Shown here one piece after another: positions 1,958 through 51,575 of a stretch of 51,575 nt of DNA (position 1 is its first letter; every line of letters begins with the position of its first letter). A program made the position numbers and the translations under genes. The notes below the pieces were generated by a model. It did not search any database. It worked only from the letters and a program-made list of their open reading frames with translations, and was not told the DNA's origin. Location: the IMG/VR virus record IMGVR_UViG_3300030104_000548, positions 1 to 51,575 of that record; one strand, 5' to 3'. This DNA is from a virus.

Positions 1958-1983
1958 ATAGTCTTGAAATAGTATGTGTTCTC

Positions 1984-3195
1984 TTATCCAGGATTCAAAC
2001 CTTTGAAGAAAGGTTTACCAGTTAATATTTGACTAAGCTGAACGGCATGAAGTTGGGGGGGTTTTTCAAAGCTACAGAAACAAGTCTTCCATCCACTGTT
2101 CTTCCCAACATTTACCACTATCTGATCTATGAATGCAGACTTCCCATCTCCCGCATGACCAGTAAACACATAAAGGTTTCCTGTTGCTAATGTAAACAAG
2201 CTATCAACACTAGGGAAACCTGTTGAAACACCACTAGGCATACCCTTATCGTAGAGGCTTTGGAAGTCTTCAGAGTAATGGTTGATATCATTCAAGCCAT
2301 GCAAAGGAATTGGCTCAGAGTTTATCACTTGGTTTCTTAGAACTTCTTTGCCCTCTGCTAAGAGTAAATCATTGGCATCTTTGTTACCCTTGTAGTTAAC
2401 TCTGTAACACTTAGCTTTGTTTAGTCTTCTAGATAACTCATCGGCTAACACATCTCCCGCAGTATCAGAATCGGTTGCTAGTATTATCTTGTTCTTGTTT
2501 TCAAACTTGGCTCTGTCTTCCCACACATACTTGAATCTACCATCTTCGCTTGGGTCTATCTTATTATCTGTTATCTTAGCGGGTGCACCATTAGGAACTG
2601 AGTACACTTCTATGTTAGCGAAGTCTTTGAATGCAGTCTTGATCGCTATGCAATCCATCTCTCCCTCCGTGATTACTATAGTGTCATCAATGTCATCTAG
2701 CTTTTCATCTCTTATGTTCTTACCCCAAAGTCTTTGAGCATTACCCTCCCACCAAAATACTTTTTCTCCATTAGCACTTCGATACTTAATTGCTTCTACC
2801 TTGTCGCCTGTGGTGTAGGAAAAACCTATGACTGGTTTATATTTCTTTTGTCCAAACGCAACGCCTGATGCAATCGCTACTTCTAAATCAATACCTCTAC
2901 CCTTTAACCACTCAGCAGATTTGCCATTGAAATCATTATCAGGTATCTCTTTTGGTGTTGTTTTCTTGTGGGTAACTCCGTTCATCTTGCTTCCATTTGT
3001 TTTTATCTTGGATACTATTCCATTTTCTCCGCAATGGTGGCAGTTGTAAACTACCTTTTCTGCATCCACATTAACAGACAAAGGCTTGTCTCCTCTATTC
3101 TTTGTTCTCTCACTCTGACATAGAGGGCATTTCATTTTGTGCTGACCCATATCTAAATGGGTCGTAGAATTTTCAATTTGCTCATTGACATTCAT
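1984..3195 (-). CDS. T7 gp4-like DNA primase-helicase, N-terminal and Walker A part
   Basis: Domains in order: zinc ribbon CPLC...CHHC (residues about 24-56) for primase template recognition; TOPRIM primase core with VITEGEMDCIA and ILATDSDTAG; linker; helicase start with Walker A GHAGDGKSAF and SFEKPPQLHAV. The product should unwind DNA and lay down primers at the replication fork. The frame ends at TAA shortly after LTGKPFFKGLN, where homologues continue, and the remaining helicase lies in the -1 frame (1487-1957). A good AGGAG site precedes the ATG. It is the only replication-fork gene seen; no polymerase is encoded, so host polymerase is presumably used. Confidence 0.9.
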   Translation of the reverse strand: MNVNEQIENSTTHLDMGQHKMKCPLCQSERTKNRGDKPLSVNVDAEKVVYNCHHCGENGIVSKIKTNGSKMNGVTHKKTTPKEIPDNDFNGKSAEWLKGRGIDLEVAIASGVAFGQKKYKPVIGFSYTTGDKVEAIKYRSANGEKVFWWEGNAQRLWGKNIRDEKLDDIDDTIVITEGEMDCIAIKTAFKDFANIEVYSVPNGAPAKITDNKIDPSEDGRFKYVWEDRAKFENKNKIILATDSDTAGDVLADELSRRLNKAKCYRVNYKGNKDANDLLLAEGKEVLRNQVINSEPIPLHGLNDINHYSEDFQSLYDKGMPSGVSTGFPSVDSLFTLATGNLYVFTGHAGDGKSAFIDQIVVNVGKNSGWKTCFCSFEKPPQLHAVQLSQILTGKPFFKGLNPG

Positions 3196-3224
3196 AAACT
3201 TCTCCTATATTTTGTTTATACTTC

Positions 3225-3270
3225 TATATACTTACTAAGTATTTACTTATTAAAAACTTACTAAGTACCT
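3225..3270 (-). promoter_or_regulatory. 46-bp element A, shared with the terL upstream region
   Basis: Matches 50889-50934 without gaps at 39 of 46 positions by eye, with blocks such as TATATAC and ATTAAAAACTTA in common. Each copy lies just upstream of a minus-strand gene (primase-helicase here, 30 bases from its ATG). Within this copy ACTTACTAA occurs twice. It is a promoter, an operator or both for minus-strand transcription. Confidence 0.6.
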
Positions 3271-3556
3271 ACTTACTACTTCCTATTAGATCAACATCAA
3301 TAATTCTAGCTATATCATTCGATAATTTTTTTCTAGATATTATTGGGTAATCTTTTAATTCTTTAACACTTCTTTGTACTGCTCTGCAATCAATGCCTAG
3401 TCTGTTACAAAGTTTGGTAAAGTCCTTAGAAATAAAGTAAGATAAAGCTTCATCAGATTTTTTTGTGTCTTTACTTGCCACATCTCTGATAGCTTGTTTT
3501 AAGATGCTACCATCTAAAGCTTTAAGTAAAGTCAAATCTGTATCCACTTTGGTCAT
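3269..3556 (-). CDS. hypothetical protein, 95 aa
   Basis: Not recognised by name. It is mostly helical, with ALSYFISKDFTKLCNRLGID in the middle, a pattern I associate loosely with small phage and prophage proteins of unknown role. It is the first gene of the minus-strand cluster, starting 79 bases from the divergent early operon, and its stop touches element A. Charged C-terminus KKLSNDIARIID. A DNA-binding or regulatory role would fit the position but nothing in the sequence proves it. Confidence 0.6.
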   Translation of the reverse strand: MTKVDTDLTLLKALDGSILKQAIRDVASKDTKKSDEALSYFISKDFTKLCNRLGIDCRAVQRSVKELKDYPIISRKKLSNDIARIIDVDLIGSSK

Positions 3557-3579: not shown

Positions 3580-3607
3580 TTGACATTAACAACACATCAA
3601 CTATACT
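3580..3607 (+). promoter_or_regulatory. strong sigma70-type early promoter
   Basis: TTGACA (3580-3585), 16-base spacer, TATACT (3602-3607): full -35 match and five of six -10 bases. It points into the recombination operon starting at 3636, with a start site near 3614 and TAGGAA before the ATG. It should be read by unmodified host RNA polymerase, as expected for early genes in a phage without its own polymerase. Confidence 0.75.
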
Positions 3608-7805: not shown

Positions 7806-8164
7806 TGATTGATTATTATGAGCAGAAGCTCAAAGAAAGAAAAGAAGATTGGTGGGAATGGCATAAGCAGAATCCTAAAGTGTGGATAAGGTTTAGGGAT
7901 TATACCTTAGAGGCAATTAAAAGCGGGAGGAAGAGTTATTCTCAGTGGGCGATAATAAATCGCATAAGATGGAATGAGGAGATTGAGACAAGGGGTGGGG
8001 AGTTTAAGATTAGTAATAACTATATAGCTTTCTATGCTAGATTGTTTCATGCCAAGTATCCTCAGTACAAAGACTTCTTTAAGCTCAAGCCTTTCAAAGA
8101 AGAGAAAGAGATAGAGAACTTAGAGAATCTAGGGTTGGATAGAGATTCAAATTTGTTCTGTTAA
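7805..8164 (+). CDS. conserved phage protein, 119 aa
   Basis: Resembles a small phage family with WWEWHKQNPKVW near the start, RKSYSQWAIINRIRW in the middle and FKISNNYIAFYARLF towards the end. It is common at the end of early modules in phages of many hosts, function unknown; an active-site role for the RIRW segment is not established. It is the last gene of the plus-strand operon, and its stop lies inside the end of the converging giant gene. Confidence 0.7.
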   Translation: MIDYYEQKLKERKEDWWEWHKQNPKVWIRFRDYTLEAIKSGRKSYSQWAIINRIRWNEEIETRGGEFKISNNYIAFYARLFHAKYPQYKDFFKLKPFKEEKEIENLENLGLDRDSNLFC

Positions 8165-11100
8165 TGTATTTACATACATTAATCTGATATCTCTTTCGTA
8201 TTCCATTTGTTCTATTATCATCTTTTTATTTGCGGGAGATAGGTCTGAGTTTAAAACTCTGTCTCTTTGTTTTCTCCAGTGAGACATATATCTTTCTAGT
8301 GCAAGTATCTGAGGTCTTGTTCTTGCCAAGCCTTGATTATTCAAAAGGAATGCCTGTGCTTCCTCAAACCTACCCTCTCTTTTTAAACTGTTTAATGTTT
8401 GTATATACTTATCGCTTTCTGCTCTAAGCTCATAAAACTGTTGTTGATATCCGCCACCAAGCTCTGTCTGAAAAAATCTTCTAAGCAATGGAGCTGAATC
8501 TATTCTTGGCATGATTACATCTCTGTCAGTAAACTGTCTTGTGACTGCATCTACTGTAGATAAAACATAAGTACCCATTGTTCCTGTGTAACCTCTCATA
8601 AGGTGTTCTAACTTCAGTGGAGAAATATTAAATGTTTCTCCGATCAATCTTAAAAATTCATTTGTACTATATCTCGACTGGTATCCCGCTTCCATGCCTT
8701 GCTCCATGTAATATGGAACTATGTCTTGACCAGTATAATTATTTCTATTATTGATAACCTCTAATAAAGGTTTTACTACTTGTGGTGTTAGGTCTACTTT
8801 TAGTGTAACTCCAAGCTGTCTGCTTAAAGACTTTGCTGTTTCATCAAGGGTTGCATCTCCCATAGCTAAATCAAAAATTCTTTCAGGTATAACCTTATAC
8901 AGCACACCTACTTCAAATGGTATAGGTATTTTTAAAGCGGGCATTCCCTCAAATAGAGGGATAATCCAGTTGTCATCTCTTGTTTCTCGTCTAGCATTTT
9001 TGTATTCTTCTTCATCACTGAACATCACATAATAAAGACCAGTTATAAGTGCTAACAACATACCTCTTTGGAAAGTGCCTTTAGCAATACCATTTCTCAT
9101 TTCTTCTAGTGTTTGATCTTTGCCAAACTTACTAACAGCAGAATACCTTCCTAAGTGTGCTCTACCTAAAACATCTAAACCTTGAAGTCTTGCATTAAGG
9201 AATGTTACTGCTGTAGTTACAAGTCTAAATATTGGACTTGCTCCTCGTCTACCAAAGTTTATTATCTCTAATGCTTGATAGGCGGCTTCTGCTTGACTGC
9301 CTGTTAGCTCAAAGACTTTATCATATACTGCAGAACGAGTTGCTCCATCAGATTTTGTTGTGTATTCTCCTAACCAATCCCAAAGTTTAGTTACAGCATC
9401 TGTTGCAGTTAAAGCACCATTGTCTCCAATGCCCATCTTTCTAAACTGTTTCTTAATGTAACTATCTATATTTTGTGGGTCATTACTAAAATCATATCCA
9501 CCAACTATTCCAAATTTTTCTAACTCAGTTAAATTTGAATTAAAAAATTTATCAAATGTATCGACTATAGGAGTAATTTCTGCTCCTGAAGTTACTGCAG
9601 TTGACAGGCTATCTCTTAATAAGTTAACAAACATAAAGCCTGGATCACGGGTTATAAACTCTCGTAACCATCCTGCAGGTGCTCCTAATACTTCTCCTAA
9701 AATACCTTGATCATTTATACCTATTGCTTGTAAGCCACTAATTAATAATGGGTCAGCAACTTTAAAAAATATTCTTTCGCCATTTATAAAGACTGGCATT
9801 ATGTCAGCACCTTTTGCATCTTTAGCTGGTACACGAACTGCCATATCTGCAAGCTCAAAGTTTCTAGCAAGTCTTGCAAGACCTTCGTTCTTCATAGCCG
9901 CTGTAACAATAGCTAAATTATTTCGTGCAATAGCTTCTAATGGAGAGATATTTATATCTTCTTCACTACCTTTTAACTTTATATTTAGTGGATTGCCTGC
10001 AATATAACCTGATGCAATGTTTGGACCTTTAATAGTTTCATCTTGCATCTGTCTATAGAAAGGATAGTAATCTGAATTATCTAACCATATTTGTGCTGTG
10101 CCTCTAGTTTCAATTCCTGATTGAGCAGCTATCTCTATCAATTGACTTACTTCTAAGTCTGCTAAGTCTCTTGCTTTGTTGTCTGTTTCTGCGACTATAT
10201 CTTTTATTAGTTCATATTTACTTCTGCTATAACTAAGTATTCCTGCATCTACTGCAAACTTAATTACTTCATTGTTATATGCTTGATACTTATTCCAAAC
10301 TTCCTTAACAATAGGAAAGTCTTGTTCTATTTGTTTTGCTTTTATTATTGTTTGTTCTGATACTGGAACTTTTTTTCCTTCCTCAGCTAACCTTTCACTT
10401 CTTTGTGCTATCGCATATATCTTAAATAGTTGTTCTAGGTTTACTTCTGGATCAGCAAATAGAGGTGCAAATATTTCTAACAATCCTCCATGCTCAAAGT
10501 CTTTAACAGAGGTCAATCCCTTTTCAAGTGTCGGCACACCATTTTTTAACATGGCTGCAAATATACCTCTTGCTCTATCAGCATGACGCAAAGCTGCAAT
10601 AGCACTGGTATCTGCAAGATTTTCTAACTCTCTTACTTCAGCATTCTTTTCAGCTGATTCAATAATTCCTTTTTCAACATCATTTAATTTATCAATAAAC
10701 TGTGTTCTTGCATCACTTAACCACTTACCTATACTGCCTCGCCATCCTAGAGATTTTAAGAAACTCTTACCAAATGATTCACTAGGTTGATTTGCACCAC
10801 CTACATCATCTAATGCACCCTCATAACCTTTAGGTATCTTGGCATAATCTCTGTAAAATCTACTTGATATGTCTGGTGGCACATCATATTTCTTTGAATT
10901 AGCTTCATAGTCAAAAGCTATAGCAAGAGCCACAGGGCTTGCGTTTGTATTAAATCTAGGGATGTTACCCCTTGAATACCTTTCTGCTCGTCTACGGGCT
11001 TCTCGTTGCACCTCAGCTATATCTATATCAGCTAACTCAGTCTCTCCTGCAAGTGCTGAGTTTTCTTGTTCGTATGGTTTTAAATTTAGATTAGGTGCTT

Positions 11101-14100
11101 GTTCTTGTGTTAAGCCTATTTCTTTGGCGAACTTTTTGTAGGCTTCGTAGGCGGGGATGTAAAGATCACGGAGGGCGGCTCGTTGTAAATCGGATGATTC
11201 GAGGAGACTTTCTCTATCCCTAAGTCCTCGTATAGCTGATCTAGTTCCTGGGCTGTAGCTGCTTTCTGCTCCGTATTCGATGTATTCGCTTTCTTGACCA
11301 TATCGTTTTAAATTATAACCTTTTCCACTTAGAATTGGTTCAATACTTTCTGCAAAATCATTTGCATCTTGTTTAGTATAAGGTCTATCTTTATTAAATG
11401 AAATAGGATCAATTAAAACTATACCTGTTTTATCAGTAGCTTGTAATGTAAAGTTTACTTGCTCTCCTCCTCTGCTCATTCCAGATAGACTTCTATTTAA
11501 ATCTTGTAACTCAGCAACATTAAATAAACTTTGATCTGGTTTCTGAATAATTAAACCAGTTTGAAAGACACCTTGTTTTGTTGGTCTTAAAGTTATTGCA
11601 GAATCTTGCATGAATGCATCAGTAAATATTTGTGATATAGCACGAACTGTTTTTGGTTCTGCTCCAGGCAGCTTCAATAATATATTTGGATTTAAGTAAC
11701 CATCATATGTTCCAGCTGATCTTGTAATTTCATGTGCTATCCCTAGCTCACGCAAGAATCTAATCTTATTACCTGATGTTATGGCATTTAACATATTCTC
11801 TTGATAGTCAAAGAACTGATCAAAATTTATTGACTGGTCAATATTCTGTGGAAGATACCCTCTTGTTTTACCCATCTTAAATTCAAATAAAACACTTGGT
11901 GCTTCATTAACAATCATCTGATACATATTATTTTTTAAGTCAGTATCAAATACATTTGATTTTGCTTTACTGTTAAATCTTGGTTGATGAATAAAAACAC
12001 CAGAGAATGTTCTATCTTTAGAAAACAATCCTTCACTTTCTAAATTCTTTAAATCAGAAATTTCTTGTTCTGCTGCAGATACTGCTGAGTTGTAACTGCC
12101 TTCATTAGTTACATTAGTTGGACCAGAATATCTTTGATGTGCCCAAAGCAATGCTTGAACTTGTCTTGGTGTAAAGTTTCTTGGTTCACCATTAACTTTA
12201 ATATTTTCTGCTGCAAGCAAAGCTATTAAACCTTGTGTAATTCTATATTCTTGTTCAGTAGTTTTCTGTCCTTCTTGTAGCTCAATGCCAAACTTTCTAA
12301 GCATATGCCTATCAATTACAGAGAAAGGTGTAAACCTATTATTAGCTGCATCTAATATTTCTAAAGCATAAGTAGAAGTCTTTTGTCCTGTGCCTTGTCT
12401 ATTATATAAACCTGTTTCATATACTTTAGCTATATCATTTAATCTAGAATTATTGTTCATAGCTACACCAAACTTCTTAAGTTCAGCTATATATTTTTTT
12501 GGTTGTTCAACTGGATCAATCTTTCTTGCTACAATCATAGCTCTTAAAGTATCTTTAAGATTTTGTTCTGGTTTGCTTTGTGCTGATGTAATACCAAAGA
12601 TTGCAGAAAATTCATTCATGTTGACATCGCCAACTATATTTGGAATGCCTACACCCCATCTCTCGTACCAAAGATAATCCATATTCTTAGTGATAGCATC
12701 TTTTAAATCATCTCTAATTTCTTTGATATCTTTCCACTTATGTTTTCTTTTAGATTGTGGGCTTACAGATTTATGTAATGCTTGTAAATTCTTTGCAGTT
12801 AAATTACCTTTATTGCTTCTATATAATGTTAAAAGACTTTGTTCAGTTTCTCCTGGATATAAAGTATTTTGTGCAGTTAAACCACTTCTAGAAAATCTTG
12901 ACTTTATATCTCCTGTTAAATCTTTTAATTCTTCTCTTAAATTATCAACTTTGTTTTGTGCTCTCAACATATCAGAAAATAATTTTTGGTATCTCTTCTT
13001 ACCAACATAAGCACCATCGACATTTAAAATACTTTCTGCTCTATATAATTCAGATTCTGCTGTAGTCAATAATTCTCTAACTGTATCTATTTCTTTAGAG
13101 AATCTAGATTCTGGATTCAATAATCCTGCTGCTTGTTTTAATTGTGTTTCTCTTAAGCTTCTTACTTTATTTCTTTCTCTGCTACCTATAACTCCTGAAT
13201 CTAAATCTTGCAATATACTTTCAGGGCTTCTAAAGCCAGCACCAAAAATAGAATCAACAGCACCAAAAAAGAAATCAATAATTCTTTTAATAATACCTTT
13301 TGGTTTTCCAGTTATTTGTTTTGGATTTTCTCTATAAAGTCTAAATAATTCTGCAACATACTCTTCATCACGAATAACAAGACTATCATCTTTGTATGCT
13401 TCTGTAATACCATCTTTTAAATTTTGCGGCAACTTCTCGATAGCATATTCTACTAATGTTTGATATTCATCTTCTGTTAATAAGTCTAGTTCTCTAAGAG
13501 CATGAATAGCTTCATGATCCATAAGACCTGCAAGTTTACTTTTAAATTCTGCTTCAGTTAAAGTACCATCAGGATCAATCTTATTCATAGCTGTAAGAAT
13601 TGTTCTCATAGGAATATCAAATGAAGCTTTATTTGCAAAAGGCACAGGATTAAAGACAGGCTTTCCATCTACAAATCTAATCTCTGTAGACATTTTCATA
13701 GCATTATCAAACTTTAATGCTATATCTTTTAACCCTAATTCATTTAATCTTTTTCTAGCAAACTCAAATAGTCTTTTGTATTTGCCTAAAGATTCTGGAG
13801 AAGGTAATGCTAAAAGTTCATCAGTTTCAACTACATCCTTAATATCTTTCTCTAAGACATTATTTATTTCTTCTTCTGTTAATGGAGTAGTTTCTCTTAA
13901 TCTTTGTGCAAACTCTTCTGTAGATTCATTAAGACTTTGTGCTCGTCTAGCTTGTCGTCTTTCAAAATCATCAGACATTTCTAATCTGTTGTTTACTTTA
14001 TCTGCTCTACCACTGTTAACTAAATCTTCTCTTAAAACTTTTAATTCTTTAGGTGTTAAATTTTTTCCTGTTTGTCTATTTTTTACAAATGCTTTTATTT

Positions 14101-16153
14101 CATTGTTAGTAATTCTTTGACCTTTGTATTCTGTATATAATCTATTAAGATCATTAACACTATATGCTCTTGGTCTAAAGTCAGGTAGTTTTGTTTCAAC
14201 ATCAAATCTAGGCAATCTCTTTAATTCATTAATCAACAATTCTTTTTGCCCACGATTCATAGTATTAAATGATTTAGTACCTGTAATTTGTTCAGCCATA
14301 TATTCAAATGCAGGAGAATTAAAATCTGGAATTATATTTTTAGAACTTAAAACTTTTTTAAAGTCACTTCTTGTAATACCTATCTTTTCTCTTGATCTAG
14401 CTATAGCAACACGATCACCTGTTTCTCTTTGTGTCTTTTCAATAACATGAGCTTTCTCTGACATCAAAGCATTGAAGTCAGCAGGTAATAATATTTTTTT
14501 AGCTTCTTGTGGAGTGTAATATGATTTAGGTGCAATACCTTTTTTTCTAGCACGGGTGTGCAATTGACCTACTAAACTAGATGCATCTATTTTAGTAGCT
14601 GTGGTTGGATAACTTGTTTGTTGTTTTACAAGTTGTTCTTCTAATAGAGTTAATTGTTCTTCATTTAATTGTTGATCGCCAACTAAATCTTCAATAACTG
14701 AACGATCAAGTTTTTGTTTTATTTCTTTTTCTTTTTCTGCTTTGGCTTTTCTACCAATGTTAATACGTGAATCTAAAGCAGCAACAGACTGGACTGGAAT
14801 TAAATTACTTATAGGATTGTACAGCTTGCTACCTAATGCATATGCTGTGCCATTACCATACAAACCATTGATTGATAAACTTTGTTTTACTGAAGTATCA
14901 ATAAAATTATTTCTAAGTTTTTCACGTAATACAACTGCTTCTTTTGCTGCAGTTTCTGTGTCTGGAAAAATACCATAATCTTGACCAGTGTTTATTCCCA
15001 TTACAGATGCAGTGCCATTTGGATTCTGTATTATTTCAAACTCTTCTAGCAACGGAGTTTCTGCAAAATCTAAAGTAGATTCTACAATAGGTGTATCTAC
15101 TTGTGCGTCTTGTGTATCTGTAATACTTACTTCGGATTCTAAAGGTAATACAACTGCACCTTCATTTATAGCTCTATTAAAGTCTCTTCTCTTATCAAAT
15201 CTTTTTTGTTCAGCAACTTTTCTTTCTTCTCTTTCTTTGTCTAATAAATATTCACGACCTATGCCACGCTTATCCATTACACCACGCATGACTAAATCAG
15301 CTAGAAAACCTACACCACCACCAATTGTAAAATCATCCAAAAAGCTTTCGCCTATTGGTAGCTGATCACTGTAAATACCTCTAGCGGTTGCATCTTGTAG
15401 CAATCCTGCTGTAGCTTCTTGAACTGCTTCTATTCCACCTGATTGTAAAGCAAACATTAATCTGTCACGTGGTAATAATTTGCCTGATGATTTAGGAACA
15501 TATCTTAATAATCTTACAGGTGTAACTACTTCACCTAAACCAATGAGACCACCAAATGTTTCTGCTAAAAATTCTTGAAATGGAGAAACTTCTTCTCCCA
15601 GTGCTCTAGCTTGCTCTATGCTTCTACCAGCTCTTGCTACACCACTTGGTGAACCTAAACTTGCAACACCTGCAAGACTTGCTGTTCCTTGTCTTGTTAA
15701 TTTTTGTGCAGGAGTTAAAGCTTGAAAACCTTTAGTGGCTCCTACAGCTTTTGCTGCTAATGTTCCTGGCACCATATAGGAAGCAAATGAACCAAGCCCT
15801 TGTCCTAGTCCTGTAGAGTAAGCATCTTCATAACCTTTTAACGGACTATAAGTATCACTTACAGCTTCTTGAGCATCTCTTAAAAGATTACCAACAGCAC
15901 TATCATTACCTTGGTCAAAATAATTTACAACACCTTCTCCTGCATTAAGAAAAGAATTAATAAATCCGCCTGGTATTTGTTTAACTGCATTGAATACTTC
16001 ACCACCAAAATTTCTTTCTACTTCTTCTATATAGGGTGTGTAATATCCAGGATATAATTCAGCTAAATGATTTTGCAAAGCAATTAACTCTTGATCACCA
16101 AGATTATCTTTTATCTTTATTACTCTGCCATCAGGTAATCTATGTAAACTCAT
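8147..16153 (-). CDS. giant polyvalent ejection protein with HExxH peptidase motif and LPD38-like C-terminus
   Basis: A 2668-residue protein, in the class of large polyvalent virion proteins injected with DNA. Seen: a hydrophobic Gly/Ala-rich N-terminus (first about 250 residues); charged coiled-coil regions; a zinc-peptidase motif HEAIH at residues 880-884 with a downstream EEYVAELF that could supply the third ligand; a domain near 1160-1380 with TSAQSKPEQN and DRHMLRKFG; and a C-terminal part (about 2330-2590) with DDNWIIPLFEG and IPIPFEVGVLYKVIPER, matching the large polyvalent protein-associated domain 38. A membrane-like segment (GMLLALITGLYYVMF) lies within it. Expected role: enter the host with the genome, form an ejection path and modify host components. 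Last gene of the late transcription unit. Confidence 0.85.
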   Translation of the reverse strand: MSLHRLPDGRVIKIKDNLGDQELIALQNHLAELYPGYYTPYIEEVERNFGGEVFNAVKQIPGGFINSFLNAGEGVVNYFDQGNDSAVGNLLRDAQEAVSDTYSPLKGYEDAYSTGLGQGLGSFASYMVPGTLAAKAVGATKGFQALTPAQKLTRQGTASLAGVASLGSPSGVARAGRSIEQARALGEEVSPFQEFLAETFGGLIGLGEVVTPVRLLRYVPKSSGKLLPRDRLMFALQSGGIEAVQEATAGLLQDATARGIYSDQLPIGESFLDDFTIGGGVGFLADLVMRGVMDKRGIGREYLLDKEREERKVAEQKRFDKRRDFNRAINEGAVVLPLESEVSITDTQDAQVDTPIVESTLDFAETPLLEEFEIIQNPNGTASVMGINTGQDYGIFPDTETAAKEAVVLREKLRNNFIDTSVKQSLSINGLYGNGTAYALGSKLYNPISNLIPVQSVAALDSRINIGRKAKAEKEKEIKQKLDRSVIEDLVGDQQLNEEQLTLLEEQLVKQQTSYPTTATKIDASSLVGQLHTRARKKGIAPKSYYTPQEAKKILLPADFNALMSEKAHVIEKTQRETGDRVAIARSREKIGITRSDFKKVLSSKNIIPDFNSPAFEYMAEQITGTKSFNTMNRGQKELLINELKRLPRFDVETKLPDFRPRAYSVNDLNRLYTEYKGQRITNNEIKAFVKNRQTGKNLTPKELKVLREDLVNSGRADKVNNRLEMSDDFERRQARRAQSLNESTEEFAQRLRETTPLTEEEINNVLEKDIKDVVETDELLALPSPESLGKYKRLFEFARKRLNELGLKDIALKFDNAMKMSTEIRFVDGKPVFNPVPFANKASFDIPMRTILTAMNKIDPDGTLTEAEFKSKLAGLMDHEAIHALRELDLLTEDEYQTLVEYAIEKLPQNLKDGITEAYKDDSLVIRDEEYVAELFRLYRENPKQITGKPKGIIKRIIDFFFGAVDSIFGAGFRSPESILQDLDSGVIGSRERNKVRSLRETQLKQAAGLLNPESRFSKEIDTVRELLTTAESELYRAESILNVDGAYVGKKRYQKLFSDMLRAQNKVDNLREELKDLTGDIKSRFSRSGLTAQNTLYPGETEQSLLTLYRSNKGNLTAKNLQALHKSVSPQSKRKHKWKDIKEIRDDLKDAITKNMDYLWYERWGVGIPNIVGDVNMNEFSAIFGITSAQSKPEQNLKDTLRAMIVARKIDPVEQPKKYIAELKKFGVAMNNNSRLNDIAKVYETGLYNRQGTGQKTSTYALEILDAANNRFTPFSVIDRHMLRKFGIELQEGQKTTEQEYRITQGLIALLAAENIKVNGEPRNFTPRQVQALLWAHQRYSGPTNVTNEGSYNSAVSAAEQEISDLKNLESEGLFSKDRTFSGVFIHQPRFNSKAKSNVFDTDLKNNMYQMIVNEAPSVLFEFKMGKTRGYLPQNIDQSINFDQFFDYQENMLNAITSGNKIRFLRELGIAHEITRSAGTYDGYLNPNILLKLPGAEPKTVRAISQIFTDAFMQDSAITLRPTKQGVFQTGLIIQKPDQSLFNVAELQDLNRSLSGMSRGGEQVNFTLQATDKTGIVLIDPISFNKDRPYTKQDANDFAESIEPILSGKGYNLKRYGQESEYIEYGAESSYSPGTRSAIRGLRDRESLLESSDLQRAALRDLYIPAYEAYKKFAKEIGLTQEQAPNLNLKPYEQENSALAGETELADIDIAEVQREARRRAERYSRGNIPRFNTNASPVALAIAFDYEANSKKYDVPPDISSRFYRDYAKIPKGYEGALDDVGGANQPSESFGKSFLKSLGWRGSIGKWLSDARTQFIDKLNDVEKGIIESAEKNAEVRELENLADTSAIAALRHADRARGIFAAMLKNGVPTLEKGLTSVKDFEHGGLLEIFAPLFADPEVNLEQLFKIYAIAQRSERLAEEGKKVPVSEQTIIKAKQIEQDFPIVKEVWNKYQAYNNEVIKFAVDAGILSYSRSKYELIKDIVAETDNKARDLADLEVSQLIEIAAQSGIETRGTAQIWLDNSDYYPFYRQMQDETIKGPNIASGYIAGNPLNIKLKGSEEDINISPLEAIARNNLAIVTAAMKNEGLARLARNFELADMAVRVPAKDAKGADIMPVFINGERIFFKVADPLLISGLQAIGINDQGILGEVLGAPAGWLREFITRDPGFMFVNLLRDSLSTAVTSGAEITPIVDTFDKFFNSNLTELEKFGIVGGYDFSNDPQNIDSYIKKQFRKMGIGDNGALTATDAVTKLWDWLGEYTTKSDGATRSAVYDKVFELTGSQAEAAYQALEIINFGRRGASPIFRLVTTAVTFLNARLQGLDVLGRAHLGRYSAVSKFGKDQTLEEMRNGIAKGTFQRGMLLALITGLYYVMFSDEEEYKNARRETRDDNWIIPLFEGMPALKIPIPFEVGVLYKVIPERIFDLAMGDATLDETAKSLSRQLGVTLKVDLTPQVVKPLLEVINNRNNYTGQDIVPYYMEQGMEAGYQSRYSTNEFLRLIGETFNISPLKLEHLMRGYTGTMGTYVLSTVDAVTRQFTDRDVIMPRIDSAPLLRRFFQTELGGGYQQQFYELRAESDKYIQTLNSLKREGRFEEAQAFLLNNQGLARTRPQILALERYMSHWRKQRDRVLNSDLSPANKKMIIEQMEYERDIRLMYVNTLTEQI
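8161..8182. repeat. hairpin at the convergent ends of early and late units
   Basis: TTAATGTAT (8161-8169), loop TTAC, ATACATTAA (8174-8182): a perfect 9-bp AT-rich stem where the plus early operon and the minus late unit end against each other. No T-run on either side, so any terminator role is uncertain. Confidence 0.45.
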
Positions 16154-33214: not shown

Positions 33215-33547
33215 TTAACTAGGTACGCTAAAATCGTTATCTGGTGAGCTTACTGCTGGTGGGCTAGTAATAACACTATCTACTTGACTAGCAAATACTG
33301 CATCCCATTGAGATACAGGACATAGTGCTACTAGATTAGCATTACTCCAACTACCTTTAGCTTTAAGTGTAAAGTTTGCATTACCATCATCATCTAATTG
33401 TGGAACAACAATACTGAAAGTAGTAGTGTAATAAGTAGAATCACCTTCACTATCATTTTCATATTTCATTTCTATATCCCACTTATCTACTTTACTAGAT
33501 GAGTTTTCATACGGAACGCATTTTACAATTGCTTTACTAACTGCCAT
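33215..33547 (-). CDS. hypothetical fibre-associated protein, 110 aa
   Basis: Beta-rich (YYTTTFSIVVPQLDDDG, NFTLKAKGSW), ending in a Ser/Pro-rich tail. Its ATG overlaps the fibre stop by 11 bases, so it may be a fibre cap or chaperone. Not recognised by name. Confidence 0.55.
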   Translation of the reverse strand: MAVSKAIVKCVPYENSSSKVDKWDIEMKYENDSEGDSTYYTTTFSIVVPQLDDDGNANFTLKAKGSWSNANLVALCPVSQWDAVFASQVDSVITSPPAVSSPDNDFSVPS

Positions 33548-36500
33548 TTTCTTCCTCCTTTTCTAAAAGTTCTATTCTTGCGATCAATTCATTGTAACCT
33601 TTTAAATCTGGTAAGTCTTTAGGAGTATGAGAATTTGATTTCAACTCCTCAACTTGTGCAGATAATTCTTGTACAGCTTTAACTAACATCGGTACAAACT
33701 TATTATATTTTAAACCATACTGGTTGCCGTCATCACTTAAAGTTGTTGTAAGATTACTTTTGTCAGATATGTTGTAACCATATTCTGATTCTAATTTTTC
33801 AACATCTTGTGCTAAAAATCCAACATCTAGCCAATCTTCTTTATGTGAACCATCTGGAACTATGTGGTTAAAGTCTTCACCTTTTTCTACATAGTTACTT
33901 CTTTTATCCCATTTATAGGTAACTGGCTCTAACTTATTAACAAATTCTAAGCCCATTGGCATAGGTTCTACGTCTGTTTTATCTCTCTTATCTGAGGCTA
34001 CTGTCCAATCTACTTGAACGTGTGCTGCTGTAATATTTTCATCACCAAGTACAATCTCATTAGATTCAGTATCTATAGGTCCACCTGGGCTTCCAGATAG
34101 TCCTGCATCATGTCCTAATAAAAGATTGTTACTGCCACTTGATAAGTTTTTACCAGCACTAGAACCAAGAGTAGTATTATCACTACCTGTTACTGTGCCT
34201 ACTCCTCCAGCTAAATTACCTATAAAAGTATTGCTTGAACCTGTTGTTAAATTTTCTCCTGCTCTGTCTCCCATAGCAGTATTATTAGCTCCTGTAGTGC
34301 AGTCACTTAAAGAACCATAGCCAACTGAGGTATTTTGGTCTGCTGTAGTATTAGCGTCAAGTGCGTAAGTACCAACAGCTGTATTGTGTGCTCCTGTGGT
34401 ATTACTTTGCATTGCTGCACCACCGATTGCCACATTGTTTGCAGCAGTTGTTGCATTTTGTAAGCTGCCGAATCCAACAGCTGTATTTGCTGCACCTGTA
34501 GTATTTGTGGATAAACTGTTATAACCCAGTGCTGTGTTGTAGTCTGCTGTAGTATTTGCGTCAAGTGCATAAGTTCCTACAGCTGAGTTATATGCTCCTG
34601 TGGTATTTTCTTCTAAGGCTTGATAACCCACAGCTACGTTAAAACTTGCTGTAGTATTTTTCTGTAGAGCTTCTTGACCTACTGCTGTGTTTGTTGCACC
34701 TGTGGTGTTTTCTTGTCCAGCTAAATAACCTACTGCTGTGTTTCCATTACCTGTAGTAGTTTCTTCTAATGCTAATGCACCTACAGCTGTATTGGTTGTT
34801 CCTGTAGTTAAAGAGTGACCAGCTTGATAGCCAACAGCTACGTTATAAGTATCTGAATCACTACCAGGATTTGCAACTAAAAGTGCTTCATGCCCTATAG
34901 CTACGTTTCTATCCCCTAAAACATTAGCTCCTAATGCTTGTGCTCCTATAGCTACGTTAGTATTACCTCCAGTACAAGCATCTAAAGACTGATAACCGAT
35001 TGCTACATTATCATTTGCTGTAGTATTGTTAGCTAATGCATCTTTACCTATTCCAACATTTCTTTGTCCTGTAGTGTTTGCTCCCATAGCATGATTACCT
35101 ATGGCTGTATTGTCGGAAGCTGTTGTATTTGCGTCTAATGCGTGTGCACCTATAGCTACATTTCTGTTTCCTGTTGTATTTACATCAAATGCTTCATAAC
35201 CTATAGCTACATTAGCTGCACCTGTTGTATTTAATGCAGCAGCTGCATAACCGATTGCTACGTTTTCACTTGCTGTTGTATTAGCTCCTAATGATGCCGT
35301 TCCTAATGCTACATTGTAGTCTCCTGTAGTATTAGCATCTAAGGCTTGATAACCAAATGCTGCATTGTAGTCTCCTGTAGTGTTTGCTGCTAATGCATAA
35401 AAACCTACTGCTGTGTTGTGACCACCAGTAGTATTAGCTGTCATAGCACTTTTACCAATAGCTGTGTTTTCACTAGCTGTAGTGTTTGCGTCAAGAGCAA
35501 AAGCTCCTACTGCTACGTTATCATTTCCTGTAGTGTTTACATAGAGAGATTCTCTACCTACAGCCGTATTATCATGTCCTGTGGTGTTTGCACCTAAAGC
35601 ACCACGACCTACTGCTGAATTACTGTCTGCTGTTGTGTTTGCTGTTAAAGCACCTTGTCCTACGGCTGTGTTTCTTGCTCCTGTAGTATTGGCTCCTAAT
35701 GCTGCTTGACCTATCGCTACGTTTTCACTAGCTGTGGTGTTAGCATCTAAAGCAAAAGAACCCACTGCTACGTTGTTTGCTCCAGTAGTATTAGATAACA
35801 TTGCATCATGTCCAATCGCTGTGTTGTCATCAGCTGTTGTGTTAGCACTTAATGCCATCACTCCAATAGCTACATTGTCTGCACCTGTTGTATTTGCATC
35901 TAAAGAGGCATAACCCAATGCAACATTATTTGATCCTGTGGTATTAGCATCCATTGCTAATCCACCGATTGCTGTATTTTGTTTGCCTGTTGAATTGTTT
36001 GTTAGAGCAGCATAACCAACACCTACGTTGTAGCTGTCTTCGTTGGTGCTTGGATTATATGTAGTTAAAGCACCATGTCCTATACCTACGTTTCTATCGC
36101 CAACTGTGTTCGCATCTAAAGCATAATTACCAACTGCTACGTTTCTGTCACCTGTGGTATTGGCTCCTAATGCTGCTGATCCTACAGCTACATTATCGGA
36201 AGCTGTTGTATTAGCATCTAAAGTAGCATAACCAACTGCTACGTTTCTAGCTCCTGTGGTGTTTGCTCCTAAAGCTAAACCACCAACAGCTGTGTTTGAA
36301 CCTCCTGTAGTATTGGCATCTAATGTTGTTCTTCCTACAGCAGTATTGTTATCTCCTTCTGTATTAGAGACTAAAGCATCTTGTCCTACTGCTGTGTTTG
36401 AACCACCTGTAGTATTTGCTGCTAAAGCTCCTGTTCCTACGGCTGTGTTTACAATACCTGTAGTGTTTGCAGCTAATGCACTTTTTCCTAGAGCTGTGTT

Positions 36501-37907
36501 TGAATAGCCAGTAGTATTTGCTGCTAATGCTGATTTACCAAATGCTGCATTGTTAGAAGCTGTTGTATTTGCTGCTAAAGAGTTATGACCTACAGCTGTA
36601 TTAGCACTACCTGTAGTATTTGCTGAAATACTTAAATAGCCTACAGCAGTGTTATTGTCTCCTGTTGTATTAGCGTCTAAGGCAGCAGAACCAACTGCTA
36701 CATGAGAAGAACCTGTAGTATTAGCTACTAAAGCATTGTGTCCTACAGCTGTGTTGTTATTAGAACCTGTTATTGCTCCTAACGCTGACTTACCTACAGC
36801 TACATTGTAGTCACCATCTGTTAAAGCATCACCTGCTTGGCTACCTATAATAGTATTTTCAAGACCAGCTGTAAGTTTAGTTCCTGCATGATAGCCCAAT
36901 GCTGTGTTATGGTCTCCAGATGTTAGGTCATCAAAAACTTCCCAACCTAAACCTGTGTTATAAGAAGCTGTAGATAATGTTCCTGTACCTGCGTCATTAC
37001 TTATTAGAATACTGTTACTAAAGTTAGTTATGTTTGAGGATATGCCAACACCATTTATTGTACTTGATCCTGTAATAGCTCCATCTACTTGTAGAGTTGA
37101 AGCCATATCTACAGCTCCGTCTATATCGACCACATCAAGGTTTGTTGTTCCGTCTACGTCTATATCTCCAGATATATCAAGACTTGCAAAAACTGATGTA
37201 CCTGTAGCAGTTACTGTTCCTGATATATCAACAGCACCATTCATGTCTATGGTTGTAGCGTTTATTTCTATTTCAGTATCAGAAACTAAATCTAATACTC
37301 CGTCTGCTGATTGATGTATGTATGTGCCTGAATCACCAAACTGTAATTGTCTTGTGCTATTTAATAGTAAACCTGTATCAGCAACGTGTGTAAGAGTGGT
37401 ATCTGTATCTGTACCAAAACCTAATACTGAGGCATCAGATAATAAAGTTAAATCGTCACCAACAAAAAAATCACCTGCTACATTTAAATCTGTAAATGCA
37501 TCTGTCATAGCTGCACCAGAGCCAGCTCCGTCAGAATATACAGCTTTTACATGACCTGCTGGTATAGTGACATTAGCTCCTGAGCCTTGAGATATAATTA
37601 TATTTTGTGATCCTGATGTAGCATTTTCTATTAGCCAAACCTTAGAAACAGTATTTGGTCCAATAGTTATCGTACAAGCACTATCAAGTGTGCCTGTATA
37701 TTTTAGATACAATGAACGACCTGGATCAGTTGATCCATCTGCTATTGTTGTTGTGTGAGTATCAGCATTTGTAGTTATAGCTTCTGTGCCATAACTAAAA
37801 GCTTCTGCAATTAATTCTAAATTGGTATTCGTAGAAGTACCCCAGGTACCGCTTTCGTCACCTGTTGCAATTTCTTTAAGTCTTAAATCATTTACATATG
37901 TTGCCAT
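33537..37907 (-). CDS. giant repetitive tail fibre with S74 intramolecular chaperone
   Basis: A 1456-residue fibre. The N-terminus (MATYVNDLRLKEIATGDESG) is a tail-attachment type shared by marine phage fibres. About residues 316-1275 consist of some 56 repeats of 17 residues, consensus N-T-A-V-G-x-x-A-L-x-A-N-T-T-G-x-x, like the YadA-head beta-roll of trimeric adhesins. The C-terminus has ASDKRDKTDVEP and GLEFVNKLEPVTYKWDKR, the Ser-Lys dyad region of an S74 endosialidase-type chaperone; self-cleavage before Ser1305 would release about 152 residues. It should be trimeric and bind the host surface. Overlaps the following small gene. Confidence 0.9.
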   Translation of the reverse strand: MATYVNDLRLKEIATGDESGTWGTSTNTNLELIAEAFSYGTEAITTNADTHTTTIADGSTDPGRSLYLKYTGTLDSACTITIGPNTVSKVWLIENATSGSQNIIISQGSGANVTIPAGHVKAVYSDGAGSGAAMTDAFTDLNVAGDFFVGDDLTLLSDASVLGFGTDTDTTLTHVADTGLLLNSTRQLQFGDSGTYIHQSADGVLDLVSDTEIEINATTIDMNGAVDISGTVTATGTSVFASLDISGDIDVDGTTNLDVVDIDGAVDMASTLQVDGAITGSSTINGVGISSNITNFSNSILISNDAGTGTLSTASYNTGLGWEVFDDLTSGDHNTALGYHAGTKLTAGLENTIIGSQAGDALTDGDYNVAVGKSALGAITGSNNNTAVGHNALVANTTGSSHVAVGSAALDANTTGDNNTAVGYLSISANTTGSANTAVGHNSLAANTTASNNAAFGKSALAANTTGYSNTALGKSALAANTTGIVNTAVGTGALAANTTGGSNTAVGQDALVSNTEGDNNTAVGRTTLDANTTGGSNTAVGGLALGANTTGARNVAVGYATLDANTTASDNVAVGSAALGANTTGDRNVAVGNYALDANTVGDRNVGIGHGALTTYNPSTNEDSYNVGVGYAALTNNSTGKQNTAIGGLAMDANTTGSNNVALGYASLDANTTGADNVAIGVMALSANTTADDNTAIGHDAMLSNTTGANNVAVGSFALDANTTASENVAIGQAALGANTTGARNTAVGQGALTANTTADSNSAVGRGALGANTTGHDNTAVGRESLYVNTTGNDNVAVGAFALDANTTASENTAIGKSAMTANTTGGHNTAVGFYALAANTTGDYNAAFGYQALDANTTGDYNVALGTASLGANTTASENVAIGYAAAALNTTGAANVAIGYEAFDVNTTGNRNVAIGAHALDANTTASDNTAIGNHAMGANTTGQRNVGIGKDALANNTTANDNVAIGYQSLDACTGGNTNVAIGAQALGANVLGDRNVAIGHEALLVANPGSDSDTYNVAVGYQAGHSLTTGTTNTAVGALALEETTTGNGNTAVGYLAGQENTTGATNTAVGQEALQKNTTASFNVAVGYQALEENTTGAYNSAVGTYALDANTTADYNTALGYNSLSTNTTGAANTAVGFGSLQNATTAANNVAIGGAAMQSNTTGAHNTAVGTYALDANTTADQNTSVGYGSLSDCTTGANNTAMGDRAGENLTTGSSNTFIGNLAGGVGTVTGSDNTTLGSSAGKNLSSGSNNLLLGHDAGLSGSPGGPIDTESNEIVLGDENITAAHVQVDWTVASDKRDKTDVEPMPMGLEFVNKLEPVTYKWDKRSNYVEKGEDFNHIVPDGSHKEDWLDVGFLAQDVEKLESEYGYNISDKSNLTTTLSDDGNQYGLKYNKFVPMLVKAVQELSAQVEELKSNSHTPKDLPDLKGYNELIARIELLEKEEENGS
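34081..36959 (-). repeat. array of about 56 51-bp coding repeats
   Basis: The DNA repeats every 51 bases in phase with the 17-residue units of the fibre. Units 18 and 41 contain four-residue insertions of related sequence (NPSTNEDSY and NPGSDSDTY) in matching surroundings, pointing to duplication of a multi-unit block. This is coding repeat, not CRISPR: there are no unique spacers. Confidence 0.85.
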
Positions 37908-40293: not shown

Positions 40294-40986
40294 TTAATAA
40301 ACACTTCCACCTGGTACAAACTTTACTGCTGCTCTTTCTCTATCAGCATCAGAAACTTCATCCCATAGCTCCATGTATCTTTGCCTAATCATGTTAACTC
40401 TATTCTGAGCTTCAGGTTCTTTACAAGCTATATTATATGCTAGTGCATAAGTTAAGCATGGAAGATATCTTGCTGGTACATCTGCATTATTACTTGCAAC
40501 ACTACCTGCATCTTCAATTCTTTTTATGTAGTCATAAACTAAAGTATATGTTTGTGCATCATCAGGTGTTGACCATAAAACTATATTAATACCACCAGTA
40601 CCTTTATCAGCATAAAACTGTGTAGGTTTTGACTTAGACAGTTTCTTTGCTTGATGGTTGTACTGTGTTCTAGATATTCTAGTAAGTTGTTGATCAAACT
40701 GTTTATCAGTATCTCCAGAATCTGTTCGTATAAAAGCATCAACTATTTCTAACGCAGAAGTTTCTGCAGCATAGCTGCTAGTGCCTGCAGTTAAAGCTTG
40801 AGTTGCTTGTTCTATCTTCCAAAGGTTTAAGCCTTTGTTTTGCCATTCTAAAAATATAAGATTTAAAGCACGTCTTGCAGTTCTATAATCATAACCAGAA
40901 CGCATAGTAAGACCGCATAGTTCATATGCTTCTTCCATGATATCTGATAAATCTAAATTAAATGTTGTTGTACCGCTTGTTGCCAT
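40294..40986 (-). CDS. head-completion/P22 gp4-like connector protein
   Basis: LDLSDIMEEAYELCGLTMRSG, RTARRALNLIFLEWQNKGLN and SRTQYNHQAKKLSKSKPT match the gp4-like adaptor family that joins the portal to the tail in P22-like phages. The C-terminal RYLPCLTYALAYNIA helix is typical. It sits with the second adaptor (39339-39980) between basic proteins and fibre genes. Confidence 0.75.
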   Translation of the reverse strand: MATSGTTTFNLDLSDIMEEAYELCGLTMRSGYDYRTARRALNLIFLEWQNKGLNLWKIEQATQALTAGTSSYAAETSALEIVDAFIRTDSGDTDKQFDQQLTRISRTQYNHQAKKLSKSKPTQFYADKGTGGINIVLWSTPDDAQTYTLVYDYIKRIEDAGSVASNNADVPARYLPCLTYALAYNIACKEPEAQNRVNMIRQRYMELWDEVSDADRERAAVKFVPGGSVY

Positions 40987-49379: not shown

Positions 49380-50879
49380 CTAGTAATAATCTGCTGTTTT
49401 ATTATGTTCTAATGGTTCATCTTCTTCATCAGAACGTAAAGGTACAAATCCACCCTGTCTAAATCTTAACAAAGCTTGCGTGCTGCTATCAACTAAATCG
49501 TCATGTTCCGCATTTGGAAAAGACGCAAACTCTTCTATAACTTCTTCTGCCCATCTTGTCTGAGGTGCCCAAACAACTCCTGAAGAAAACAGATCAGATA
49601 CCGCATTAACTCTTGATATCTTATCGTTACCTCTACTAGGAGTGTACTCTTGTACGGGAATACCCATTTGCCTCAATTCAAATATTAATGGCATACCAGC
49701 AGCTTTTGCCTCAATAATAAAAGCATCTGGCTTATATGACTTGTAACTCTCTAAAGCACGTTTCTTTAATTCAGGAAACTCTAATCTTTCTTTATGTGCA
49801 TCGAGCAAAATAATTTGGGGTGTAGTTAAACCACTGCTTTCATCTTCTCTATAAAAGACACCCCAAGTAGTACAGGCAGAGTAGTCAGCTCTTTGAGTTT
49901 TTAAGAATGCGGTATCCCAAGATTGAATTATAAATTCACATTGAGGAGGTTCTCGTTCTTCCCATTCTTTCCACCACTCTCTTTTAACAATGGCTCCTTC
50001 TTCAGCTGTAGGGTCTTGCTGATACTGAGCCATCCATTTAGAAGTTGGTAGTTCTGCTTTTAAAGCTTCTAACTCTTCAAGCTTCCAAAATTCTGACCAA
50101 AGAGGATTACCTGAAGGTAATATAGCTGGAAGCTCAATTACTTCCCATTGGTCGGCACCGCCTCGTTTAATACTAGCATCAACTAACTGACCAGTGAGGT
50201 CACGCTGATGCCATCTTGTCATCACTACTACAATTGAACCTTTAGGTTGTAAACGCTGTCGTGGTCCTGATGTGTACCACTCATAAGTTTTATTAAATAC
50301 ATTCACATCTGAGGAAGCACCTTCCTGTTCAGAATGTGGATCATCGATGATAAGTAGATCAGCACCTTTACCAGTTACTGCACCACCTACACCGATAGCG
50401 AAGTATTCTCCGCCTTTGTTTGTGTTCCAACGCCCAGCAGCCTTACTGTCAGCCTGCAGACTTATATTTGGGAATAAGTTTTTGAAATCTTTACTGTTGA
50501 CTAAATTTCTTACCTTTCTACCAAAACCGACAGCAAGTTCTGCTGTATGGGCTGTCTGGATAATCTTCTTGTCGGGATATCTTCCTAGAAACCATGCAGG
50601 TAAAAGATAGGAAGCGAACTCCGACTTCGTGTGTCTGGGAGGCATATTAATGATCAACCTTTTCAAATCACCATTGACCACCCTTTCAAAAGCCTCAGCC
50701 ATAATCTCATGATGTTTTCCGTGAATGAAAGCAGACCACATTGAGTTAACGAACTTGAGAAACTTAGCCTCACAAGCTTCTCTATTCTTAGAGTTCTCTA
50801 GTTCTCTCAACAAAGAAACTAACTCTTGTTTATCTTCTGCTGATAAACTTTGTAACTTACTCAATACCTGTGTATTCAT
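49380..50879 (-). CDS. terminase large subunit
   Basis: Packaging motor with RLIINMPPRHTKSEF (Walker A-like), DLLIIDDPHSEQEGA (Walker B), VVVMTRWHQRDLTG (coupling motif), and an RNase H-like nuclease with IQSWDTAF and NAEHDDLVDSSTQALL (catalytic acids). Length 499 is normal. It starts only 9 bases after the 46-bp element B with no clear ribosome site, so initiation may be leaderless or use another signal. Confidence 0.92.
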   Translation of the reverse strand: MNTQVLSKLQSLSAEDKQELVSLLRELENSKNREACEAKFLKFVNSMWSAFIHGKHHEIMAEAFERVVNGDLKRLIINMPPRHTKSEFASYLLPAWFLGRYPDKKIIQTAHTAELAVGFGRKVRNLVNSKDFKNLFPNISLQADSKAAGRWNTNKGGEYFAIGVGGAVTGKGADLLIIDDPHSEQEGASSDVNVFNKTYEWYTSGPRQRLQPKGSIVVVMTRWHQRDLTGQLVDASIKRGGADQWEVIELPAILPSGNPLWSEFWKLEELEALKAELPTSKWMAQYQQDPTAEEGAIVKREWWKEWEEREPPQCEFIIQSWDTAFLKTQRADYSACTTWGVFYREDESSGLTTPQIILLDAHKERLEFPELKKRALESYKSYKPDAFIIEAKAAGMPLIFELRQMGIPVQEYTPSRGNDKISRVNAVSDLFSSGVVWAPQTRWAEEVIEEFASFPNAEHDDLVDSSTQALLRFRQGGFVPLRSDEEDEPLEHNKTADYY

Positions 50880-50888
50880 AATATGTAG

Positions 50889-50934
50889 TATATACCTAAT
50901 AAGTATTAACTAATTAAAAACTTATGTAGTACCT
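50889..50934 (-). promoter_or_regulatory. 46-bp element B, matching 3225-3270
   Basis: Ungapped match to element A at 39 of 46 bases by eye. Directly upstream of terL on the minus strand. Together with A it suggests a phage-specific promoter or operator used at both ends of the minus-strand programme. Confidence 0.6.
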
Positions 50935-50935
50935 G

Positions 50936-50962
50936 TAGTAGGTACCTAACAATAGTAGGTAC
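50936..50962. repeat. direct repeat TAGTAGGTAC
   Basis: TAGTAGGTAC occurs at 50936-50945 and again at 50953-50962, 17 bases apart. The core AGTAGGTAC is also present, inverted, at 3266-3274 beside element A. Likely binding sites for one protein. Confidence 0.5.
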
Positions 50963-51326
50963 ATACTTTTTGTTTGGTATATTCTAGGTATATCTATCTA
51001 CAGATTATACAATATTGTACTACTTCACATAAAAAAGCAATATAAAACGTAAAAATAATTTAGAGGCTTATAGGGTACCTTAACCCATTCTCTGGAAATA
51101 GGGGGTAGGGGGGTACAATATACACTGCTTGCAAAATGCAATTACTTAACCAGGTCTATTAAAACTGATAATCGTTTGTGTAAATCACTATGTATATAAG
51201 ATAGTCATGCACGTATGCGATCTAGGGGGGTCGGGGGTTGTTATTTCTTCTCTTATTAATAGGGTGGTGTTGCTTTTCTCTGCTGTACAAAAAATGATCA
51301 ATGGGTCTTAAATAACAAAAATGGTT

Positions 51327-51569
51327 TCAGTGTTTCGTTAGTAATTGCTCTATTCTTTCTTCCAACTCTTGCTCTATCTCTTCACTGGGTCTTGTCTCTT
51401 TGGTTTCTACTACGTCTGAGAACAAACTAACGGACTTACCCAGCAACTCTAATGCTCTTACCCTTGATGCATCGCTATCTGACTGTTGGCTTTCCTTGTA
51501 GAGCCTATCAAGAACATAATTCTTCGTTCGTAGGCTTGAAGCTATTACAGTAGTCTCTTTCTTCTGCAT
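51327..51569 (-). CDS. terminase small subunit (continues past the window edge)
   Basis: LRTKNYVLDRLYKESQQSD, then SRVRALELLGKSVSLFSDVV, is the conserved C-terminal part of terminase small subunits of the Terminase_2-like type, followed by an acidic helix EEIEQELEERIEQLL. No N-terminal helix-turn-helix is visible in this part. The frame stays open to base 51575 and, if the ends join, to base 99. It should recognise the packaging site and deliver it to TerL. Confidence 0.75.
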   Translation of the reverse strand: MQKKETTVIASSLRTKNYVLDRLYKESQQSDSDASRVRALELLGKSVSLFSDVVETKETRPSEEIEQELEERIEQLLTKH

Positions 51570-51575
51570 AGCCTT

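Follow-up and report, generated by a model that had tools for sequence, protein, structure and literature searches.

The known systems closest to the present locus are of three kinds. The Arc repressor of phage P22 controls a single short operator at Pant, and the T4 middle promoters (MotA box) and the phi29 A3 late promoter are composed of a box near –30 and a –10 hexamer, with no consensus –35. The ribbon-helix-helix (RHH) ParB protein Omega of plasmid pSM19035 has sites made of 7–10 contiguous WATCACW heptads, and these 7-bp repeat arrays overlap the promoter regions of several genes (PMC9499535). As for the timing of gene expression in a Pelagibacter phage, temporal classes are seen in the transcriptome of HTVC027P (PMC12753301).

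The window analysed here is a fragment (51,575 bases) from a tailed phage in the 55–63 kb class. It is covered from both ends by its closest long relative (G001, 57,775 bases), on which the window ends are separated by about 6.5 kb, so that the regions of the terminase large subunit (terL) and primase genes are about 10 kb apart and not 47 kb. Relatives were collected via terL and via the primase, and several long contigs were read whole; every relative bearing the arrays described below was a metagenomic contig. Among the cultured relatives, which are distant by terL, are the Pelagibacter phages HTVC027P and HTVC023P (52–55% identity), both with a different replication module. In the window, the primase-helicase gene is found on the minus strand as two ORFs, an N-terminal part (1984–3195; PHROG 239, 9e-48) and a C-terminal part (1487–1957; PHROG 239, 2e-15), which match successive parts of one PHROG because about 37 bp present in G001 are missing at about 1994–1997 (window 1958–1997), a break that is either an assembly gap or a real deletion. 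The first gene of the late operon is terL (49380–50879, minus strand; PHROG 38, 8e-106), and the probable terminase small subunit gene terS (51327–51575, minus strand; PHROG 51, 5e-4), cut by the window end, is intact in G001 (40391–40837). No array accompanies the divergent early (exonuclease) operon, whose promoter is a strong consensus one of σ70-like type (3580–3607, plus strand; TTGACA-16-TATACT, 11 of 12 matches). Elsewhere in the window, an LPD38 large polyvalent protein domain is found in the 2668-aa product of 8147–16153, and a dense family of degenerate direct repeats occupies 34300–36760, within a 1456-aa ORF (33537–37907).

An earlier note on this DNA had described a 46-bp element common to the control regions of the primase-helicase and terL genes. 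Direct comparison of its two minus-strand copies, 3225–3270 and 50889–50934, confirmed 39 of 46 identical bases with no gaps, each copy lying directly upstream of a minus-strand gene (primase-helicase, ATG at 3195; terL, ATG at 50879). The nearby copies of AGTAGGTAC mentioned by the note were recovered as well, two at terL on the plus strand (around 50938 and 50954) and one at the primase array on the minus strand (around 3268–3276). The pair was also retrieved by genome sequence search (E 6e-10) and, the tail-gene repeats at 34–37 kb aside, represented the strongest direct repeat in the window, with 48.8 bits against at most 35.3 bits for the best direct repeat in 40 dinucleotide-preserving shuffles of the whole window; shuffling of the two array regions yielded at most 30 of 46 matches.

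The 46 bp turned out to be what two larger arrays, of about 65 and 95 bp, have in common at their core. Array P (3217–3282, minus strand), upstream of the primase-helicase, sits between the gene of a 95-aa protein and the primase, inside their operon, overlapping the stop codon of the former and stopping about 20–25 nt before the ATG of the latter, while array T (50880–50976, minus strand) lies upstream of terL, with weaker further sites up to about 50995. When each genome was scanned with the 7-mers of the remaining genomes' arrays (leave-one-out), the primase and terL arrays were the top two windows genome-wide in 12 of the 12 genomes with both arrays; in the DNA studied here they scored 254 and 236, and the next best scored 92. 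The two were usually far ahead of the third, the exception being the diverged G018, in which there was no margin (112, 107, and 106). The motif search proposed by the note, extended across the genome and its relatives, therefore found the array conserved at exactly the same two places in all of them, and not the lack of conservation that the note had named as grounds for abandoning the idea. The same operator type thus heads separate operons in 12/12 genomes, as in a multi-site regulon. In G014, where the contig ends before the region upstream of the primase, the array precedes a small ORF that lies before terL, indicating that what the array fronts is the late operon as such and not terL in particular. 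The genome-wide scan of the 12 genomes revealed only two arrays per genome and none at the operon of the RHH protein discussed below, which leaves no place for autoregulation of the usual RHH type and counts against that protein as the binder. HTVC027P is devoid of the arrays, and no array was found upstream of the homologous terL in HTVC027P, HTVC023P, 023Pt_psg01, and DSL-LC04. Exact matches to the array palindrome in IMG/VR amounted to 90, some of them in unrelated groups. Isolated GTAAGTAAGTACTTACTTAC palindromes were observed in such unrelated phage groups (L199, L202, L226, L240, and L272), in some of them with a distant terL about 2.4 kb away, and no RHH relative was found in these loci.

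The family consensus around GTAnnTAC corresponded to a 20-bp dyad, TAnTARGTAnnTACYTAnTA, that is, two half-sites separated by two bases (TAnTARGTA-nn-TACYTAnTA); the count of this dyad was anchored on GTAnnTAC, a core therefore fixed by construction. Unanchored EM motif discovery returned a lattice of TA steps, whose autocorrelation peaked at 4, 7, and 11 bp (z 7–14), with weaker peaks at 18 and 25; 3-mer self-matches peaked at 4, 11, and 18, with no peak at 7. Dyads were in excess, perfect 7-bp dyads being 3–7 times commoner than in shuffles. A simple heptad array was considered and rejected, since EM and autocorrelation show a TA lattice instead of a strict 7-bp repeat. The arrangement resembles that of Omega in its small RHH protein, its mixed-orientation short-repeat arrays over promoter regions of several genes, and its lattice of about 7 bp, but differs in that the 7-bp spacing is borne by TA steps and not by 3-mers, in that the sites are more dyad-like, and in that the phage RHH gene itself has no array. 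Contiguous non-palindromic WATCACW repeats were not found in the phage arrays, and the two arrays of the phage do not include one at the promoter of the RHH gene, as arrays at several promoters of the Omega type would. In view of the missing strict heptads and autoregulatory site, the phage system was not classed as Omega, whose logic is the nearest described to that of these arrays.

The two arrays of one genome also change together. The half-sites altered in particular lineages were TAGATA, CTAGGTG, and GTAACTAC: G019 had TTAGATACTATCTA in both arrays, G020 had CTAGGTG(A/T)TACCTAG in both, and G004 had GTAACTAC in both, the half-site being also altered in both arrays of G018. Array pairs from the same genome were more alike than permuted pairs (z about 3, P 0.0025–0.0043) among 16 phylogenetically non-independent genomes, a signal driven by the lineages with altered half-sites; the canonical genomes alone gave no extra pairing signal. 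G019 and G020, chosen for their divergent primases and not for their arrays, were added to the test once a first result had been seen, a point to be weighed in reading it. Before this addition the test was not significant (P 0.14–0.22), since most of the other genomes have the same half-site and are little informative. The joint change of both arrays whenever the half-site changes points to one trans-acting protein that reads both, and it is probable, judging from these sequences, that one phage protein controls the two arrays.

The RHH protein encoded at 822–1073 on the plus strand (conserved start at 828, MKSLFIRCS...), which the earlier note had suggested as a binder, emerged as the best candidate from its predicted Arc-type fold, its presence, and the variants of its strand. 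It was found in every relative whose locus is covered. Foldseek gave Arc as the top match (prob 1.00), followed by AmrZ and CopG, and the AlphaFold2 model of the RHH residues 1–45 presented helices at 12–24 and 29–44, consistent with a beta-alpha-alpha fold of the Arc type; the DNA-reading strand is not visible in this monomer model, as it needs the dimer. Arc matched the protein weakly in sequence, PHROG Arc-like repressors were matched, also weakly, by 20 of 25 members, and no match was found in 50,697 phage records nor in the genome contig collection. The strand positions that we take to be DNA-facing, from the Arc structure and the alignment, read S/N/T-F/Y-R in a nearly invariant strand. 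T-Y-R, the strand of G019 and G020, occurred in exactly the two groups with TAGAT arrays (L114/L126 and L133/L276), and AGTA-type arrays were retained where T was combined with F (L129 and L254) or S/N with Y. The half-site assignments come from two independent T-Y-R changes, and L088 and L090, in which the half-site is altered with no T-Y-R change, count against them. Moreover, RHH distance tracked array distance when the primase or the 95-aa protein was controlled for (partial Mantel 0.43–0.48, P 0.001–0.002). As a phage regulator presumed to read DNA by a beta-strand, this protein has in Arc its closest fold relative in the PDB, but in place of the single short operator of Arc the phage has two arrays, both long and separated by about 10 kb. 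The C-terminal end of the phage protein presents in nearly all relatives, after a variable linker, a conserved GLxxLAETKxQ tail, lacking in Arc, which may possibly contact a partner protein.

Directly upstream of array T there is a promoter-like element, TGTGAAG-N13-TATAAT (51004–51029, minus strand), whose full pattern, in the 13 window-family genomes scanned, was present at terL in 11; the 2 isolates lack it. Having no consensus –35, this putative promoter, predicted to start transcription near 50997, escaped the scan for TTGACA/TATAAT. It resembles the T4 middle promoters and phi29 A3 in having a conserved box near –30 and a –10 with no consensus –35, and it looks like an activator-dependent late promoter; unlike in those phages, no MotA or p4 homologue was identified, and the TGTGAAG box is reported as a conserved neighbour only. 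The element often has TTGAC about 25 bp before the –10, with the palindrome CAATATTG between them. No consensus –35/–10 pair was found in the terL upstream region, and the array element itself, with its variable internal spacing, does not have the –35 and –10 hexamers 16–18 bp apart of a σ70 promoter. Between terS and the terL promoter there are G/C-rich runs (51084–51117 and 51219–51239), and several relatives have GGGTAGGAATCCTAC followed by a C run there; these G/C-rich runs are a candidate cos or pac site.

The arrays are best interpreted, with a probability of roughly 0.6, as operators for one phage regulator, most likely the RHH protein, which would time the replication and late operons. 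Since the array sequence is AT-rich and simple-looking, a match due to chance or to a mobile repeat had to be considered, and its probability is practically nil: shuffles never approached the real score, the two copies diverge jointly, and the arrays stand at the same two places in 12 of 12 genomes, which refutes it. The earlier note had left the choice between a promoter and an operator class open; conserved placement, dyads and lattice, and co-variation argue for the operator, while the promoter lost ground. Promoters for the host or a phage-modified RNA polymerase, with starts near the ATGs, would agree with the position of both arrays directly before start codons, with the TATATAC conserved near the ATG, and with the terL TATACT found about 7 nt before the ATG with no ribosome-binding site. 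However, TATAC lies 26 bp from the T-tract in both arrays of the window but 31–34 bp in relatives, no –35-like block stands at a constant distance, arrays differ in how many sites they have and in what order, and at terL a separate conserved –10 element lies upstream. With such variable internal spacing, the 46 bp as a promoter was rejected as the main explanation, and this reading is considered distinctly unlikely.

As an alternative binder, the conserved 95-aa five-helix protein encoded by the first gene of the replication operon (3269–3556, minus strand) could control both the operon it belongs to and the late operon, given that its gene adjoins array P and is kept in all relatives with the locus, that it has weak winged-helix/HTH Pfam matches, and that its distance tracks array distance as well as that of the RHH protein does. 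Partial Mantel tests support both proteins and do not separate them, and the gene of the 95-aa protein is linked to the primase array, the array segment having included 20 nt of its coding end. Nevertheless, this protein had no PDB or fold match, its confident model lacks a strand or wing, it is conserved at lower identity than the RHH protein, and phages sharing a half-site differ freely in its putative recognition region whereas the RHH strand is nearly invariant, so that it is a weaker candidate than the RHH protein and an unlikely owner of the arrays. The arrays could instead belong to replication or packaging, as iteron- or partition-like sites: one is beside the primase-helicase, the other is between terS and terL, a frequent location of packaging sites, an AT-rich tract separates dyads, and Omega-type RHH proteins serve partition besides repression (PMC9499535). 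GC skew follows gene orientation only, giving no independent origin signal, on which grounds the origin was rejected; array P is within an operon, both arrays abut start codons, and the GC-rich packaging-like sequence is separate from the array, making sites of this class very unlikely. The abutted start codons would equally suit 5′-leader RNA hairpins controlling the translation of the primase and TerL, and single mismatches in the 8-bp dyads of the primase array favoured G-U over A-C (21 to 6). The terL array showed no such lean (10 to 9), folding was no better or modestly better than in shuffles (z –1.2 and –2.1), the common dyad has two central bases only, unusable for an RNA hairpin, and G014 has a small ORF between the array and terL. 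The mismatch test and folding gave no consistent support, and control by RNA was rejected as highly improbable.

According to the preferred interpretation, operators for the RHH protein, this regulator would be made from a separate operon on the opposite strand, and its dimers would line up next to one another along the half-sites of the TA lattice, setting the timing of the replication operon (95-aa protein and primase-helicase) and of the late operon (terL and structural genes). If transcription starts near 50997 as predicted, array T would span about +1 to +115 of the late transcript, covering the initial transcribed region downstream of the promoter-like element, and array P lies inside its operon; from these positions, repression would be the likelier sign, with initiation or early elongation blocked until sufficient template or a further factor lifts the block. 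The array positions, together with the strong array-free early promoter, favour an RHH repressor that would hold back the replication and late operons. A more speculative and rather improbable extension is that the RHH protein acts as a single switch coupling replication to late expression and packaging via both arrays and its C-terminal tail, for example by forming a bridge across the 10 kb between the arrays or through its displacement by replication; if true, it would represent a timing mechanism of lytic phages with no described counterpart found.

Among the phage records searched, no isolate carries this array system. The arrays consequently offer a handle, obtained from sequence alone, on the timing of replication and virion genes in uncultivated marine phages, and the AGTA-, TAGAT-, and CTAGGTG-type arrays with their matched RHH proteins constitute a ready test set for the reading of DNA by the RHH strand.
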